Below are positions 4,446 to 21,792 of a DNA stretch of 23,703 nucleotides, piece by piece. How positions within the stretch are numbered: position 1 is the first letter of the stretch; the number at the start of each line of letters is the position of its first letter. The notes under the pieces are model-generated. The model made no database searches. It was not told where the DNA came from and saw only the letters and a program-made list of their open reading frames with translations. This DNA is from a virus, in the IMG/VR virus record IMGVR_UViG_3300037238_000155, positions 1 through 23,703 of that record; one strand, 5' to 3'. A program made the position numbers and the translations under genes.

Positions 4446-4976
4446 TCATATGAGCACCGCTACACTAACCGTGCTGAAAAACGCGCCGGGCTCGACAGTT
4501 ACACAAGCGGGAAGCGTCTCAAGGTATTGCCAGCGACGATTGAGGATAGCCTTATCGTATGCGCGCTGAAGCATGGAGGGGAACATATCGCTGTTATAGT
4601 ATTCATGGTCACACGGACGCAGATTACAGTCTGCACGCGAGACTTTCAGTTTATAGTCCACTATATTGCGCCGTGTCTCACCGTCGAGCATCTGCTTGAT
4701 CTTGACTTTGAATGTCACTATGGCGTCTACCTGTTTCAATTGGTTATCTCCTTGGGTGTTAAGCGGATAAGCATGGGTTCTAGTATGGCCCGGCGTGTTG
4801 TTGGGTTCCGTGACGCTCATCTCACTTTGCGCGGATGGTGTACCCGATGAAGGCTGCGGAGCTTCGCTGTCACTTGCTGATAGAACAAATGGAAGTCGGT
4901 ACACGCCAATGCAAGGGTTGCCCCGGTTGGCTTCCGCAAATGCCTTAGAAAAGGAGGTTAAACGGTTGTTGTTCAC
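4446..4976 (-). CDS. Protein of unknown function (up to 176 aa)
   Basis: The longest frame starts at a GTG whose codon overlaps the stop of the pentapeptide gene (GTGA). An internal TTG at about 4741, with AAGGAG eight bases upstream, would give about 97 aa starting KQVDAIVTFKVKIKQML. That C-terminal part looks the most protein-like (beta-rich, charged, CNLRPCDHEYYNS). The N-terminal 78 residues are Pro/Ser/Asn-rich and contain the R1 and R2 repeats, so they may be translated DNA repeat rather than a conserved domain. On the opposite strand 4776-4948 holds two ATGA-linked tiny frames, so the strand of that part is uncertain. No family is recognised. Confidence 0.5.
   Translation of the reverse strand: MNNNRLTSFSKAFAEANRGNPCIGVYRLPFVLSASDSEAPQPSSGTPSAQSEMSVTEPNNTPGHTRTHAYPLNTQGDNQLKQVDAIVTFKVKIKQMLDGETRRNIVDYKLKVSRADCNLRPCDHEYYNSDMFPSMLQRAYDKAILNRRWQYLETLPACVTVEPGAFFSTVSVAVLI
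4752..4775. repeat. Dispersed repeat R1, inverted copy
   Basis: The 24 bases TTGGGTGTTAAGCGGATAAGCATG are the exact reverse complement of 6237-6260. A diverged copy lies at 4412-4434. Confidence 0.85.
4816..4834. repeat. Dispersed repeat R2, copy 1
   Basis: CTCATCTCACTTTGCGCGG is identical to 6157-6175 in the same orientation. On the minus strand it reads CCGCGCAAAGTGAGATGAG, ending at or near an ATG in both places, so it may act as a translation-start leader. Confidence 0.8.
4847..4948 (+). CDS. Possible plus-strand tiny protein (33 aa)
   Basis: The ATG overlaps the stop of another plus-strand frame (ATGA at 4847-4850). The product, MKAAELRCHLLIEQ then a CKGCPGW motif, looks protein-like and ends just before a strong rightward Shine-Dalgarno-like AAAAGGAGG. 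It lies antisense to the N-terminal part of the 4446-4976 frame; probably only one of the two is real. No family is recognised. Confidence 0.3.
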   Translation: MKAAELRCHLLIEQMEVGTRQCKGCPGWLPQMP

Positions 4977-5779
4977 GTGGTTTCATCCTGGCGTTGATGC
5001 GTCACAGTTGTCGCAGGCGTCCAGTGCTTCTTGTGAAGTTTGACCAGGGCGATGGCCCCCGCGTATTCCTTCGCATGGACATTGGTGCCGTGCTCGGCTT
5101 TGACCGCTGCGGCAAATCTCGTCAAAGTGTTGAAGAAGCACCCGGCCCGCACGTAGACCCCACCATCCGTGATGAAGGCGAACAAGGTGTCATTGCGGGA
5201 ACCAATCGGGGTAATTTGCAGGACTGGACGTTCACCCACAAGGGTCAGCTTTTTGCCTTCGTGTTCCAAAAAGGCGCCGCGCAGGTACGCTCCGCGCAGG
5301 TACGCGCCGCACAGGTCCACGTCGCGCAGGTCCACGCCGCACAGGTCTGCTCCGCACAGGTCCGCGTCGCGCAGGTCCGCGTCGCGCAGGTCTGCGCCGT
5401 ACAGGTTCGCGCCGCACAGGTTCGCGCCGCCCAGGTCTGCGTCGCGCAGGTCTGCGTCGCGCAGGTCTGCGTCGCACAGGTCTGCTCCGCCCAGGTCTGC
5501 GCCGTGCAGGAACGCACCGCCCAGGTTCGCGTCGCGCAGATCTGCTCCGCCCAGGTCTGCGCCGTGCAGGAACGCTCCGCGCAGGTACGCGCCGCACAGG
5601 TCCGCGCTGTGCAGGAACGCGCCGCCCAGGTTCGCGCCGCCCAGGTCTGCGCCGTACAGGTTCGCGCCGCGCAGGTCCGCTTTTTCCTTTACCGCAGCTT
5701 CCATGGCTAGCTTTAATAGGGGGGCTTCGAAGGAAAACGCTATGCTTCCAGTGAAGCGGTTCAAAATATCGAACTTCAT
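4973..5779 (-). CDS. Pentapeptide-repeat protein A (268 aa)
   Basis: Residues of about 34-176 are tandem A(D/N)LxX pentapeptides, roughly 28 units ([25 protein letters not shown]). These fold as a right-handed quadrilateral beta-helix; MfpA/Qnr members mimic DNA and bind gyrase, but most members have no known role. The C-terminal about 90 residues (EGKKLTLVGERPVLQITPIGS...GGVYVRAGCFFNT...AEHG) form a separate domain that I recall from other phage pentapeptide proteins. TGGAG precedes the ATG. Cys-containing units (ADLCG) are unusually frequent. A second, shorter-tailed member lies at 6382-7089. Confidence 0.85.
   Translation of the reverse strand: MKFDILNRFTGSIAFSFEAPLLKLAMEAAVKEKADLRGANLYGADLGGANLGGAFLHSADLCGAYLRGAFLHGADLGGADLRDANLGGAFLHGADLGGADLCDADLRDADLRDADLGGANLCGANLYGADLRDADLRDADLCGADLCGVDLRDVDLCGAYLRGAYLRGAFLEHEGKKLTLVGERPVLQITPIGSRNDTLFAFITDGGVYVRAGCFFNTLTRFAAAVKAEHGTNVHAKEYAGAIALVKLHKKHWTPATTVTHQRQDETT
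5270..5690. repeat. 15-bp tandem repeats encoding pentapeptides (protein A)
   Basis: The unit resembles CGCGCAGGTTCGCGC with a 15-bp period over about 420 bases. Variation is mostly at the codons for the variable residues, as expected for coding repeats under selection for the (A/C)(D/N)LxX pattern. Confidence 0.9.
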
Positions 5780-6260: not shown

Positions 6261-6385
6261 TTGATCCGTTCAATCCGTACCGCGCGCCATGCCTTGCACA
6301 TCAGCGCAGCGTCGCTAATGCTTGCCGCGCGCATCTGCCAGCTGGTACGAATACCTAAAAGCGTAATTGTGATACGATAGTTCAT
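6242..6385 (-). CDS. Small basic protein (47 aa)
   Basis: ATTAGGAGTG lies before the ATG at 6385, which overlaps the stop of pentapeptide gene B (ATGA). The product starts [16 protein letters not shown] and continues as a likely helix ([19 protein letters not shown]). Good Shine-Dalgarno, coupling and composition support coding. No family is recognised. Confidence 0.6.
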
Positions 6386-7089
6386 GACTGTACACTCCTA
6401 ATCGCTGCCTGGATAGTTGCGCCATGCAATTTCCACCACGCCGTGGCGTCCTCGTGCATCGCTGCAATCCATTGATCATCCGCTTTTAGCCACAAAGCAT
6501 TGACGTGCCTTTGGCAGCCTATGGACGTTTCTTCGGCGGTTACGCATACGCTCCATCCGCCAAAGTCTAGCCGTGCAATCTTGAAACCGTCGGGCAGGTT
6601 CGCGTAGCTCAGGTTCGCGTAGCGCAGGTTCGCGCCGCACAGGTTCGCGCCGCCCAGGTCCGCGTCGCGCAGGTTCGCGCCGCTCAGGTCCGCGTCGCTC
6701 AGGTCCGCGTCGCTCAGGTCCGCGTAGCTCAGGTTCGCGTAGCGTAGGTTCGCGTAGCGCAGGTTCGCGTCGCGCAGGTCCGCGTCGCTCAGGTTCGCGT
6801 AGCGCAGGTTCGCGTCGCGCAGGTTCGCGCCGCTCAGGTTCGCGCCGCGCAGGTTCCCGCTCAGGTTCGCGCCGCTCAGGTTCGCGCCGCGCAGGTCCGC
6901 GTAGCTCAGGTTCGCGCCGCGCAGGTCCGCGCAGCTCAGGTTCGCGCCGCGCAGGCTCGCGTAGCTCAGGTTCGCGCCGCTCAGGTTCGCGTAGTGCAGG
7001 TTCGCGCCGCTCAGGTCCGCGCCGCTCAGGTTCGCGTCGCTCAGGTCCGCGAATGGAGTAATGTTCCTTTCAATACCATTGATAATCAT
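6382..7089 (-). CDS. Pentapeptide-repeat protein B (235 aa)
   Basis: Residues of about 13-174 are roughly 32 pentapeptides of the [10 protein letters not shown] type, forming a predicted right-handed beta-helix. One unit ([14 protein letters not shown], near base 6855) has lost one residue, an in-frame 3-base loss that would shift the helix register locally. The C-terminal about 60 residues ([27 protein letters not shown]...[13 protein letters not shown]) form a short domain different from that of protein A. AGAGGGTCAAGCT precedes the ATG. Function is unknown; DNA mimicry or gyrase binding as in MfpA/Qnr is only an analogy. Confidence 0.85.
6590..7060. repeat. 15-bp tandem repeats encoding pentapeptides (protein B)
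   Basis: Units like GCGCAGGTTCGCGTA run with a 15-bp period, with one shortened unit around 6850-6862 (GCGCAGGTTCCCGCTCAGG). The units are more homogeneous than in gene A, which suggests more recent expansion or conversion. Confidence 0.9.
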
Positions 7090-11543: not shown

Positions 11544-11966
11544 ATGGCAAGCGCCGAGTATCAAAAACAATGGAAAGCTGCGCACCCCGAAAAAGCGCGA
11601 GAGTACCACAGGCGCTGGCGGGAAAAAATTGGCGACGAGGCAGCGAAAAAGCAGTCTCGGGAAAGAGCCGCGCGAGAACGCGCTCTACATCCTGAACGAG
11701 TACGTGAGCGCAAGAAAAAGAACTACGATCCTGCGTATGAATTGAGCCGCAGTCGTCAACGACAAGGTCTGCCTGAGCCAACGCGGCCTATACCTTTGTT
11801 TTGTGAGTGTGGTTGTGGGCGTCTTGCGGAAGTCCTAGAGCACGATCATGAGACGGGTAAATTTCGTGGCTGGCTCAGTTCAGAATGTAACCTCGGTCTA
11901 GGAAAGCTCGGGGACAGCATAGAGGGCGTTGAGCGCATACTGGCATATTTGAAGCGTGCACTATGA
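11544..11966 (+). CDS. Endonuclease VII-like HNH nuclease (140 aa)
   Basis: The first 75 residues are highly charged with repeated KAREYHRR/RVRERKKKN, a DNA-binding arm. The C-terminal part has CECGCGR, then EHDHETGKFRGWLSSECNLGLGKLGDS, the signature of the recombination endonuclease VII family: zinc-binding cysteines, a DH catalytic pair and the N of the ECN(L/x)GLG loop. T4 endonuclease VII resolves branched DNA before packaging; relatives also act as free-standing homing endonucleases. Placed between the two terminase genes, with ATGA overlap to the large subunit, either role is possible. Confidence 0.85.
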   Translation: MASAEYQKQWKAAHPEKAREYHRRWREKIGDEAAKKQSRERAARERALHPERVRERKKKNYDPAYELSRSRQRQGLPEPTRPIPLFCECGCGRLAEVLEHDHETGKFRGWLSSECNLGLGKLGDSIEGVERILAYLKRAL

Positions 11967-17476: not shown

Positions 17477-17539
17477 ATGGCCGTTCCCAACATCGCAGGT
17501 AAGCGGCTGATGCTGCGCCGTCCGTCCGGGCGGGCATAG
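17477..17539 (+). CDS. Possible tiny protein (20 aa)
   Basis: The frame MAVPNIAGKRLMLRRPSGRA ends in a stop that overlaps the GTG start of the restriction-modification gene (TAGTG). It has a weak GAGCGCAG site. It could be a translational leader for the next gene, or chance. The sequence CCGTCC-GTCC-GGGCGG (about 17519-17532) can form a hairpin. Confidence 0.25.
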   Translation: MAVPNIAGKRLMLRRPSGRA

Positions 17540-19968
17540 TGGTGGCGCGCGCCGAACGTATTGCAGAGGTTCGGGCAGAAGAACTCTTAGCCGAACTTCT
17601 CCGCTCACAAGGATGGGATACGCGGCGGCCTCCGTCCGGCGAGATGCTACGCCAGCACGAATATAAGGACCACACGCATTTAGCGGCGATCCTACGCGGC
17701 ATCAGCAAGAGTGGAGATGGCGACGGGAAGCCAGAAGCATTTCTTGTAGACCGTGCCACAATGCAACCGCTCGCGGTCATCGAAGTGAAGTCCGACATTC
17801 GGGCGCTTGATATTGCCGTCAAAGAAGTGACGACGGTTTATGGTCGCGCGTCAATCGATGCCGGTTTTACGCCGCTCGCTATCGCACTCGCCGGAACGTC
17901 AGAAGATAATTTCGCGGTTCGGGTTCTTAAGTGGGTGGGAACACGCTGGTTGCCTGTTACGTATGAAGGCAATCCCATCGAATGGATTCCGAACCGCACA
18001 GATATTGAGCGCCTTCTGGTCCCCGGCGCATCGCGTGAGATTCGTCCTTCGGTTCCACCGGCATTAGTCCTGGCTGATCGCGCGGACGAAATAAACCGGC
18101 TTCTTCGCGAGTCTGGCATCAAAGACGAATTTCGTCCGGCTGTTGTTGGCGCGATCATGCTCGCGCTGTGGCAATCGAAAGGGAATATACGCAAAGACCC
18201 AGCGCATATTCTCTCTGACATTAACGAGGCGTGCGGCAAAGCGTTTTGGAAAGCCAAGAAAGCCGATCTCGCAAAGAGCATTCGCGTCGATGAGGCGAAT
18301 GACGATCTATCCGTCCATGCGCGGCGCATTGTGGCTATCCTAGAGCGCCTTAACATTACCGTCTTGACGGCAGAGCATGATTATCTAGGGCATTTATACG
18401 AGGCGTTTTTCCGCTATACAGGCGGCAACACGATAGGACAATACTTCACGCCACGCCATATCGCTGAATTTGTCGCGGCGCTACTGGATGTCAAGTCAAC
18501 GGACATCGTTCTAGATCCGAGTTGTGGCACGGGCGGTTTTCTTATTGCCGTGATGAACCGCATCAGTACAGTCGAGCATCTTTCTAAAGCGCAAGTCGTC
18601 AAGATCATTCAGAAGTGCCTGATCGGTTTTGACAAAGAGCCGGTAACAGCGGCTCTTTGTGTCGCGAATATGATCCTTCGTGGCGACGGTTCCACAAGCG
18701 TACATCGGGGCGATTGTTTCACATCGGACGAATACCCGGTCGGCCACGCAAGCGTCGTTCTCACTAATCCACCGTTCCCGCATGCGAAGACAGACACCCC
18801 ACCCGAGCGGTTCATCACGCGCGGACTTGAAGGCTTGCAGCAACGCGGGCGACTGGGTGTTGTTGTTCCGCGATCACTGTTAAGCAAGATCACGAGTTGG
18901 CATGCGGGCACGCTGGCTAAGAATACTCTAGACGCCGTTATCATCCTGCCAGACGAATTGTTCGCGCCCTACGCTTCATCGTATACGGCTATTTTGCTTC
19001 TGACTAAGGGCATCAAACACCCACCGAAGCACAACGTTTTTTGGGCGCGCATAGAGAATGATGGTTTCAGACGCCGCAAGAGCGTTCGCGTTCCCTTTGA
19101 AGGCGAGCAAATATCGCTTGCGCTTAAGGCATTCCAGAATCATGAGACCGTCCCTGGTTTTTGCGGCTGGTCGCCGGTAATCGAAGGGGCTGGATGGGAC
19201 GCTGGTTACTATATTCCGGCCCGGCCTTTATCAGAGCAAGAGGTTGATGACCAGTCGGCACTCTTGGCGCGCAATGGCGCGGCCTTTGTCGTTTCACATG
19301 CACCAGAACTTGCGGCCCTCAATGATGCCGTCGCGGGTGGGAGGCTGATACCAAGGAACTATCGAACTATTAAGGGGAAGAGTGACGGCCTTTTCATCAG
19401 CGCGAAGGATGCTTCCGTAATCAGCACATATTTCGATATCTATTACGGTCAAAAGTCGCTTCACAACAAGGACGGCCTCACGGACGGAAAGGCGTTGGTA
19501 ATTTCGTCCAGCGGCATCGACAATGGCTGTTATGGCTTCTATGACTTTGACGACATCATAGAGCCGCCGTTTGTCACGGTGCCTAGCACTGGCAGCATTG
19601 GCCGCGCGCATGTTCAGAAGTGGCCGTGCGGTGTTACGGATGATTGTTTGGTTCTCGTACCGAAAAAAGATACGCCGTTGGAGCTGCTTTACATCGCGGC
19701 GTCAGTCGTCCGACAAGAGCGATGGCGGTTCAATTATGGTCGCAAGATCACCCCGGCGCGCATCGCTGAATACCCTATGCCCGTTGCAGAAAGCATTTTG
19801 GCGCGCGTCCGAACTCATATTGAGGAAGGCAGGGAACTGGAGACTATCGCGCTCCAAAGAGCAGAGGATAATCTTGACAGTTCGGTTGCACGTAAACGGT
19901 TGAAGGACGCTGACAAAGTTGTGCAAGGCCATGTGTTGAGCGAGAGGCTTGCCCGGTTAGAGACTTAA
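17539..19968 (+). CDS. Single-chain restriction-modification enzyme, type IIG-like (809 aa)
   Basis: Three parts can be read. The N-terminus has a PD-(D/E)XK nuclease motif: D71 (FLVDR), E82 and K84 (VIEVKSD). A helical HsdM-like segment (about 190-310) leads into TGQYFTP-type sequence (IGQYFTPRHIAEF). The methyltransferase shows SAM motif I D326-PSCGTGGF and catalytic motif IV N410-PPF, in gamma-class order, for N6-adenine methylation. The last about 220 residues resemble one HsdS-type target recognition domain (STGSIGRAHVQKW, NYGRKITPARIAEYPMPV). No helicase motifs exist, so it is not a type I HsdR. Both activities appear intact. It splits the scaffold-capsid pair, which is unusual. Confidence 0.88.
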   Translation: MVARAERIAEVRAEELLAELLRSQGWDTRRPPSGEMLRQHEYKDHTHLAAILRGISKSGDGDGKPEAFLVDRATMQPLAVIEVKSDIRALDIAVKEVTTVYGRASIDAGFTPLAIALAGTSEDNFAVRVLKWVGTRWLPVTYEGNPIEWIPNRTDIERLLVPGASREIRPSVPPALVLADRADEINRLLRESGIKDEFRPAVVGAIMLALWQSKGNIRKDPAHILSDINEACGKAFWKAKKADLAKSIRVDEANDDLSVHARRIVAILERLNITVLTAEHDYLGHLYEAFFRYTGGNTIGQYFTPRHIAEFVAALLDVKSTDIVLDPSCGTGGFLIAVMNRISTVEHLSKAQVVKIIQKCLIGFDKEPVTAALCVANMILRGDGSTSVHRGDCFTSDEYPVGHASVVLTNPPFPHAKTDTPPERFITRGLEGLQQRGRLGVVVPRSLLSKITSWHAGTLAKNTLDAVIILPDELFAPYASSYTAILLLTKGIKHPPKHNVFWARIENDGFRRRKSVRVPFEGEQISLALKAFQNHETVPGFCGWSPVIEGAGWDAGYYIPARPLSEQEVDDQSALLARNGAAFVVSHAPELAALNDAVAGGRLIPRNYRTIKGKSDGLFISAKDASVISTYFDIYYGQKSLHNKDGLTDGKALVISSSGIDNGCYGFYDFDDIIEPPFVTVPSTGSIGRAHVQKWPCGVTDDCLVLVPKKDTPLELLYIAASVVRQERWRFNYGRKITPARIAEYPMPVAESILARVRTHIEEGRELETIALQRAEDNLDSSVARKRLKDADKVVQGHVLSERLARLET

Positions 19969-19972
19969 TCTC

Positions 19973-20176
19973 GTGGCTTCGCTTTATGGGTTCGCCTTCA
20001 CAGAGATCGCCTTGGCGTATCTTGAAACGAACGTACCGACAAAAATTCGCGGCCAGATTAAGCGACGGATAGAAGCCCTCGCTGCGAATCCCGCGCCCAC
20101 GGGATCGAAGAAGCTGATGGGCGTGATGGATGGCGAGCATTCGGTTTATCGTGTGAGACAAGGTGACTATGGATGA
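19973..20176 (+). pseudogene. Truncated RelE/ParE-like toxin (67 aa)
   Basis: GTG 19973 follows the restriction-modification stop by four bases. The sequence matches the pattern of RelE/ParE toxins: FTEIALAYLETNVP, IKRRIEALAANPAPTGSKKLMG and the late strand HSVYRVRQGDY. Family members run about 85-100 residues; here a stop follows one codon after GDY, so the last strands, which carry important residues, are missing. No antitoxin gene is seen beside it. The family cuts ribosome-bound mRNA or poisons gyrase. It is probably an inactive relic. Confidence 0.6.
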
Positions 20177-20187
20177 AGCCGCTATGA

Positions 20188-20319
20188 TCGAGGTTCGGCG
20201 ATTCTATCTGGTATTGTGAAGTGCATAATCGCCAAAAGATAGCTGACGTATACAAACTTCGCGCGGCATGCGTGGAGTTGCTTGAACAGCCTTTTGATGT
20301 AGACCAACTACGTGCTTAA
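20188..20319 (+). pseudogene. Open-frame fragment of unknown origin (43 codons)
   Basis: After the toxin's stop another frame reads SIWYCEVHNRQKIADVYKLRAACVELLEQPF and ends in TAA. It has no good start (GTG 20221 at best) and no Shine-Dalgarno. It looks like the tail end of a real helical protein that has lost its N-terminus, not like the missing RelE end. Confidence 0.3.
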
Positions 20320-20345
20320 CGGTTATTAGGTCCCTAGCCGGACTC

Positions 20346-20703: not shown

Positions 20704-20793
20704 ATGTCTATTAACTTGGGTGGGGTTTATACTTCCACCACGGACGCCGCAATTGCCGCGTTCGACACCGAGGTCAAACTCGTTTATCAGGGT
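20704..20793 (+). CDS. Major capsid protein, exon 1 (30 codons)
   Basis: CAGGAA precedes the ATG by eight bases. Exon 1 reads MSINLGGVYTSTTDAAIAAF, then DTEVKLVYQG, the typical N-terminus of phage capsid proteins of this podovirus type. The frame then hits TAG, the first codon of the intron, so without splicing only a 30-aa peptide would be made. The exon continues in the same frame at about 21007. Confidence 0.85.
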
Positions 20794-21006
20794 TAGCTCC
20801 TAGCCCCACGCGCGCCTTACGCCGCGCGTGCAAAGACTGCGAATTCGGTGGAAGTCCAGAACGGATAATACCGAGCCAAACTCCGAAAGGATGTGTGTGT
20901 AACGACTAGGTGCAGTCCCCGAGAGGGATGGTATAGTCTGAACTCTGCAGGAATGCAGAGAGCCTGGCGGAAACGATCAGGCCGGCGAAAGCCAGTAACA
21001 AGATTG
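20794..21006 (+). ncRNA. Group I self-splicing intron in the capsid gene (about 213 nt, no ORF)
   Basis: Expected elements appear in order. P1 pairs exon end GGGT (20790-20793) and intron TAG with CTAGCCC (20800-20806), putting a U-G pair at the 5' splice site after 20793. P2 is CACGCGCG/CGCGCGTG (20807-20814, 20823-20830). P3 is GACTGC/GCAGTC (20835-20840, 20912-20917). P4 is TCGGT/ACCGA (20845-20849, 20870-20874). P7 is GACTA/TAGTC (20904-20908, 20934-20938) within the R and S conserved sequences. P8 is TCCC/GGGA. P9 is CTCTGCA/TGCAGAG (20943-20949, 20954-20960), and a GGC-GAAA-GCC hairpin follows at 20984-20993. The 3' end at G21006 keeps the frame but is a guess. Confidence 0.85.
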
Positions 21007-21792
21007 GAAGGTGTTCTACGAAATTGCGTGCGTGTTAAGACCGGCGTCACCGGTCAGCAATACGCCTTTCGCAAAATGGGCGCAGGGATGGCGTACCAGC
21101 AAACTTCTTCGGCTGAAGCAATTACTCCGAATGATACGAGCCATAGCAAGATCTTTGCGACTCTCACGAATTGGAGGATCGGAGATTACACCGATCTGTT
21201 CGATCAAGCCGAAACCAATATCGACGAGCGCATGGAATTAGCGAAGTCTTTCGCAAAGTCAATAGGCCGCGCCGAAGATCAGCTTATTATCAACGCACTG
21301 AATGCGGCCACCGGTTATGCCGGCACCGTCACCAGTGGCTATGGTGGAACGAACACCGGCCTTACGGCCGACAAGCTTCGTCACGCCAAACGCTATTTGG
21401 TTCAGCAGCAAGCGAGCGGCGGGGATCACTATCTCGCCACGACCGCGATAGGCCTCGAGACGGCATTGGCCGAGATCGAAGTCACGAGCGCGGATTATCA
21501 GACGATGCGCGTCCTTGTGGACGCCGATATCAACAGCAAGAAGGCTTTCGGCTTCACGTTCAAGATTATCGAAAATCGTTTGGAAGGCGGCTTGCCGACT
21601 GGTTCGACCAGCACCGCCGTCTGCTTCGCTTGGGACAAAGCTTCGACCGGTCTTGCGACCGCCATCGAGCCGCAATCCCGCGTTGACTTCATCCCTGTGA
21701 ACGGCGCATGGCTGTCGCAGTCAATCTACATGGGCGGGGCCGCCGTGATCGACGCTTTGGGCGTTGTTCCGGTCATGGTCTACGGCACCTAA
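21007..21792 (+). CDS. Major capsid protein, exon 2 (about 261 aa)
   Basis: The rest of the shell-forming protein. The start GVLRNCVRVKTGVTGQQYAFRKMGAG continues the exon 1 ending VYQG, as in related capsid proteins where the AYQG and VRVKTG.VG segments are adjacent. Further landmarks are DTSHSKIFATLTNWRIGDYTDLFDQAE and DADINSKKAFGFTFKIIENRLEGGLP, ending in AVIDALGVVPVMVYGT. The joined protein would be about 291 aa, normal for this group. The apparent start at 20893 of the uninterrupted frame is inside the intron and is not real. Confidence 0.85.
   Translation, partial: EGVLRNCVRVKTGVTGQQYAFRKMGAGMAYQQTSSAEAITPNDTSHSKIFATLTNWRIGDYTDLFDQAETNIDERMELAKSFAKSIGRAEDQLIINALNAATGYAGTVTSGYGGTNTGLTADKLRHAKRYLVQQQASGGDHYLATTAIGLETALAEIEVTSADYQTMRVLVDADINSKKAFGFTFKIIENRLEGGLPTGSTSTAVCFAWDKASTGLATAIEPQSRVDFIPVNGAWLSQSIYMGGAAVIDALGVVPVMVYGT

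Follow-up and report, generated by a model that had tools for sequence, protein, structure and literature searches.

Results and Discussion

The major capsid gene of an uncultured tailed phage (IMG/VR record IMGVR_UViG_3300037238_000155) is split after codon 30 by an intron of 213 nt, located at 20794–21006 of the window, that is, of the whole stretch of 23,703 nucleotides analysed here. The intron is almost certainly a compact group I ribozyme without an open reading frame (ORF), placed between capsid codons 30 and 31 and predicted to be excised from the precursor mRNA with joining of the exons. Judged from its sequence, it is a group I intron and not an unprecedented kind of element.

Organization of the Interrupted Capsid Gene

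Coordinates refer to the plus strand unless stated otherwise. Exon 1 (20704–20793), which aligns with the uninterrupted gene of 17 relatives, consists of 30 codons (MSINLGGVYTSTTDAAIAAFDTEVKLVYQG) and finishes with GGT, placing U (T20793) at position -1 of the splice site. The intron opens with an in-frame TAG (20794–20796) and ends with the omega-G, G21006. Exon 2 (21007–21792; 261 codons plus TAA, the stop codon at 21790–21792) reads EGVLRNCVRVKTGVTG from 21007. When 20794–21006 is removed and 20793 is joined to 21007, a continuous protein of 291 aa ending at 21792 is obtained, which matches Phage_capsid_2 (PF19821; 191.5 bits, E = 2.4e-56, cut-off 25) and PHROG 3437, a major head protein. 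No ORF was found inside the 213 nt, no recognisable homing endonuclease gene adjoins the intron and no further copy of it was found elsewhere in the same record. An earlier note on this DNA had described a 30-codon first exon of the major capsid gene followed by an in-frame TAG opening a small intron of about 213 nt without an endonuclease gene, with 20793 joined to about 21007. This description is borne out, the boundaries almost to the base. The capsid frame does resume, as the note also stated, though not at VRVKTGVTG but somewhat further upstream, at 21007.

Several observations concern the surrounding genes. A type IIG-like restriction-methylation protein of 809 aa (17539–19968; N6_Mtase, E = 2.6e-33) is encoded between the scaffold and capsid genes; this methylase was found in none of the records of the 17 relatives, and by eye a phosphoglycerate-mutase-like gene takes its place in records L002 and L003. 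A short frame (19973–20330; 67 aa) begins, by eye, like a RelE-type toxin, ends early at 20176 and may be a remnant. On the minus strand, two pentapeptide-repeat-like proteins (4973–5779 and 6382–7089) were recognised by eye.

The Empty Site in Relatives

All 17 close IMG/VR relatives, with capsid proteins 79–95% identical, encode the capsid protein as a single uninterrupted frame. This frame measures 873 nt, except in three relatives whose match goes no further than residue 281 and in which it measures 843 nt. On the upstream side, DNA similarity between the window and each of the 17 stops at 20792 or 20793; the next match begins exactly at 21007 in nine and 19 to 30 bases later in the rest. 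The insertion point has YQG on one side and EGVLR on the other, all of them invariant residues. At codon 30, GGT stands in the window and GGC in 14 of the 17 relatives, so that the U required at -1 is a minority variant. A profile search extended the comparison to 58 capsid loci, the first 17 included, none of which is interrupted at the insertion site; RF00028 had no match in the records of the 17 relatives, and the intron at this position is seen in a single record. The empty-site comparison is unusually clean, and excision as predicted would restore the relatives' gene codon for codon.

Group I Identity and Fold of the Intron

The earlier note had proposed a check against the Rfam group I model, the outcome of which was favourable in part: a local search of 701 bases matched the core to RF00028 at 20784–20960 across the full model (positions 1–253 of 253; 42 bits, E = 2.7e-9), a score below the gathering score of 50 bits. 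A scan of the whole window at the curated cut-off reported nothing, and routine annotation would therefore miss the intron. The predicted fold gave z = -4.2 against dinucleotide shuffles, none of 200 shuffles being as good.

The core helices P3, P4, P5, P6, P7, and P8 are present in order, P6 being short and P8 assigned by eye. P1 (20790–20806), drawn from the sequence and the predicted fold, pairs exon GGGU and intron UAG (20790–20796) with CUAGCCC (20800–20806) and holds the internal guide sequence; its core is the pairing of GGGU with guide-sequence GCCC, with a U(-1).G wobble at the splice site. P2 is a predicted hairpin, CACGCGCG...CGCGCGUG (20807–20830). The strands of P3 are GACUGC (20835–20840) and GCAGUC (20912–20917), and P4-P5 occupies 20845–20874 (UCGGU/ACCGA; GUCC/GGAU). 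P7, the guanosine-binding helix, is formed by GACUA (20904–20908) and UAGUC (20934–20938), the latter placed by the RF00028 match and by covariation. P8 is the hairpin CCC-GAGA-GGG (20918–20927), in agreement with the predicted fold, and P9 is CUCUGCA-GGAA-UGCAGAG (20943–20960). These are followed by P9.1 (20962–20982), a hairpin with a bulged A and a GAAA loop. P10 is short, with three pairs, AGG/CCU, recognised by eye. The order P1, P2, P3, P4, P7, P8, and P9 had already been read in the earlier note and agrees with the model match, the fold and the covariation; P5, P6, and P9.1 are additional to its list. In subgroup IA2, common in phages, the P7.1 and P7.2 stems lie between the 5' strand of P7 and the 3' strand of P3. 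The window intron lacks this feature of the subgroup, only three bases separating the two strands.

Related introns were gathered through a gene-agnostic pattern of the P4-P5 core, found in 18 phage contigs, and through two more patterns, which gave 24 further contigs. Across 14 aligned introns, P5, P7, and P9 displayed compensatory changes, with 94.3% of cells paired and a covariation score of 0.420 compared with 0.123 when shuffled (0 of 500 shuffles). In P7, three of five pairs changed on both sides and all cells were paired (100%), while P4 was invariant. Among the five most compact introns, 18 of 34 pairs had changed on both sides, located in P3 (5 of 6), P5, P7, P9, and P9.1 (5 of 8, with 100% of cells paired). 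Here 99.4% of cells were paired, against 26–42% when the structure was slid along the alignment, and again no shuffle of 500 equalled the result. A related nrdA intron in contig L042, for example, carries an insertion with extra stems between P7 and P3, which are absent from the window intron and from the compact introns related to it.

The sub-threshold Rfam score would also fit an intron that has decayed and lost its splicing activity, in a phage which uses another capsid gene. This is highly improbable, since the core helices and the two splice-site bases have all been preserved, the reading frame continues across the exons to give a product 95% identical to that of the nearest relative, and a second capsid gene was not recognised among the window proteins scanned. 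An assembly chimaera, or an insertion of another type (a group II fragment, an intein or an insertion sequence), might be suspected from the occurrence in a single record and from a weak overlapping match to group II D1-D4 (18.4 bits, E = 0.088). That match lies far under its cut-off of 49 and uses the group I P4-P9 stretch; internal stop codons rule out an intein, and a chimaera would not yield a complete group I core ending at a codon boundary. The probability of such an origin is accordingly close to negligible.

Proposed Splicing Reaction

The anatomy of the intron, as read from the DNA, speaks for the two-step reaction that is standard for group I introns. In the precursor mRNA, GGGU at the end of exon 1 would pair with the internal guide sequence to form P1. 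A guanosine bound in P7 would then attack after U20793, and the freed exon end would in turn attack after G21006, joining the exons into the mRNA for the 291-aa capsid protein. We infer that splicing does occur, and without the help of protein. Translation of an unspliced transcript would halt at the in-frame stop codon with which the intron begins and yield only a 30-aa peptide; the supply of capsid protein would therefore depend on splicing.

Comparison with Known Systems

The size of the intron, its lack of an ORF and its host gene each have precedent, as the following cases indicate. In LittleE, a Cluster J mycobacteriophage, a capsid intron of 819 bp, likely of group I, was demonstrated to splice by RT-PCR and protein sequencing (PMC3706429). 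It resembles the window intron in lying in the major capsid gene, in having been found against intronless relatives and in the U before and the G at the end of the intron; it differs in its length, in an endonuclease-like ORF and in belonging to another phage group. The intron of the BAKA/Optimus minor tail gene (265 bp), the splicing of which was shown by RT-PCR (PMC3706429), is likewise small, without an endonuclease gene and in a virion gene, although that gene is a minor tail gene and the phages are actinobacteriophages. An intron in a capsid-subunit gene, as in the window, is cited in the same paper for Tuc2009, a phage that differs in being lactococcal. Jug phages are reported to carry small introns in large numbers, with a mean of about 206 nt (PMC12363816). 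By blastn, the closest P4-P5 cores in phage records belong to introns of Cronobacter phage vB_CsaP_009 and Pectobacterium phage PPWS1 (39 and 36 of 42 bases, respectively); unlike the window intron, these adjoin primase/helicase and DNA polymerase genes and have ORFs inside. In Klebsiella phage vB_KpnP_ZH4 (L020:1912–3133), a gene whose pieces are annotated as DNA maturase B contains two RF00028 introns (67.7 and 59.6 bits).

Compact Introns in Head-Protein Genes

Compact introns whose core, like that of the window intron, lacks P7.1/P7.2 were found in major-head-protein genes of IMG/VR contigs L046 (two introns), L051, L041, L110, L112, L115, and L118, and those aligned share P9.1 with a GAAA loop. 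They differ from the window intron in residing in capsid genes of other PHROG families and, in several cases, in HNH, LAGLIDADG or other endonuclease-like ORFs inside or adjoining them. In the gene-agnostic scans, exons beside such introns matched head-protein PHROGs 1357, 1328, 9953, 2522, 11589, 267, and 4523; portal, tape measure, nrdA, and primase/helicase genes were the other hosts. Head-protein genes accounted for about 11 roughly independent contigs of about 33, with independence grouped by eye, a figure that stands without a background rate in viral contig collections favouring hallmark-gene contigs such as those with capsid genes. A preference of such introns for capsid genes is thus a lead and not a result. 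It is possible, and put forward tentatively, that a compact intron lineage without P7.1/P7.2 has repeatedly and preferentially colonised the major capsid genes of unrelated tailed phages, the window intron being its Phage_capsid_2 member. The view in the earlier note that introns are uncommon in phage capsid genes was overstated, given the published LittleE and Tuc2009 cases and the 11 or so contigs in the scans.

Two of the contigs deserve separate description. The PHROG 1357 capsid gene at L046:4782–5694 contains a pair of compact group I introns separated by about 770 bp, the second of which is followed by a LAGLIDADG ORF (PF03161, E = 8.3e-36). In L024 (bajarodcaudo virus 1), the annotation divides the major capsid protein into four pieces, separated by intron-associated endonucleases, which suggests a capsid gene with three introns.

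Mobility and Candidate Helpers

Mobile introns are recognised by an endonuclease gene inside the intron; the 213 nt of the window intron contain no ORF. As it has no endonuclease of its own, the intron probably owes its transfer to ordinary recombination among related phages, or else to an endonuclease whose gene lies elsewhere. The expectation in the earlier note that mobility needs help is reasonable, although the only candidate helper is unsupported by its context. This candidate is a free-standing endonuclease VII-like ORF (11544–11966; PF02945, E = 2.9e-12) just before the large terminase gene. In cyanophage S-PM2, the free-standing endonuclease F-CphI, of the Endo VII-motif kind, performs collaborative homing of a psbA intron (PMC6083498). 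The window resembles S-PM2 in combining a group I intron and a free-standing Endo VII-motif gene in one phage, whereas in S-PM2 the endonuclease gene is adjacent and cleavage of the site has been shown.

As an addition to the explanation given above, bearing on mobility, the product of 11544–11966 might cut intronless capsid alleles at the insertion site, with the intron protecting its own phage and spreading by repair. Such collaborative homing would suit an ORF-less intron and an insertion site within invariant codons, and the third-position GC of the ORF (0.468, compared with 0.62–0.65 for TerL, portal, and scaffold) suggests its recent arrival. It is nevertheless unlikely. Some 8.8 kb separate the candidate gene from the intron, while F-CphI adjoins its target; the best relative of the candidate, 46% identical, occurs in an intronless phage and, by its coordinates, likewise immediately precedes the large terminase region; and the motif of the window copy reads E-H-H-R-N in place of D-H-H-R-N, with one cysteine of the second pair missing. 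The neighbouring methylase gene was set aside as a helper, nothing tying it to the intron.

A co-converted flank arriving with the intron was considered too, as synonymous divergence from all relatives is greater in the first 190 codons of the capsid gene than in the remainder. This was rejected: the third-position GC of these codons (0.60) fits that of the other genes of the window (0.62–0.65), while codons 191–291 (0.75) resemble L002. It is simpler to regard the 3' end of the capsid gene as the imported part, and the divergence of the flank therefore provides no evidence of homing. At synonymous sites, the last 100 capsid codons (21487–21792) are much closer to L002, with 0.15 differing, than are the first 190, with 0.53, which places a mosaic breakpoint within the capsid gene some 500 nt downstream of the intron. 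No match to the intron was found in a plasmid collection. A profile search of bacterial and archaeal genomes gave no relative of the capsid protein that could point to a host.

Implications

Annotation at the Rfam cut-off misses introns of this kind, leaving a capsid gene that appears truncated. Why they settle in capsid genes, where they recur across eight PHROG families, is a question that lends itself to testing. If a compact lineage has indeed colonised capsid genes preferentially, its niche would be late, very highly expressed and conserved genes.
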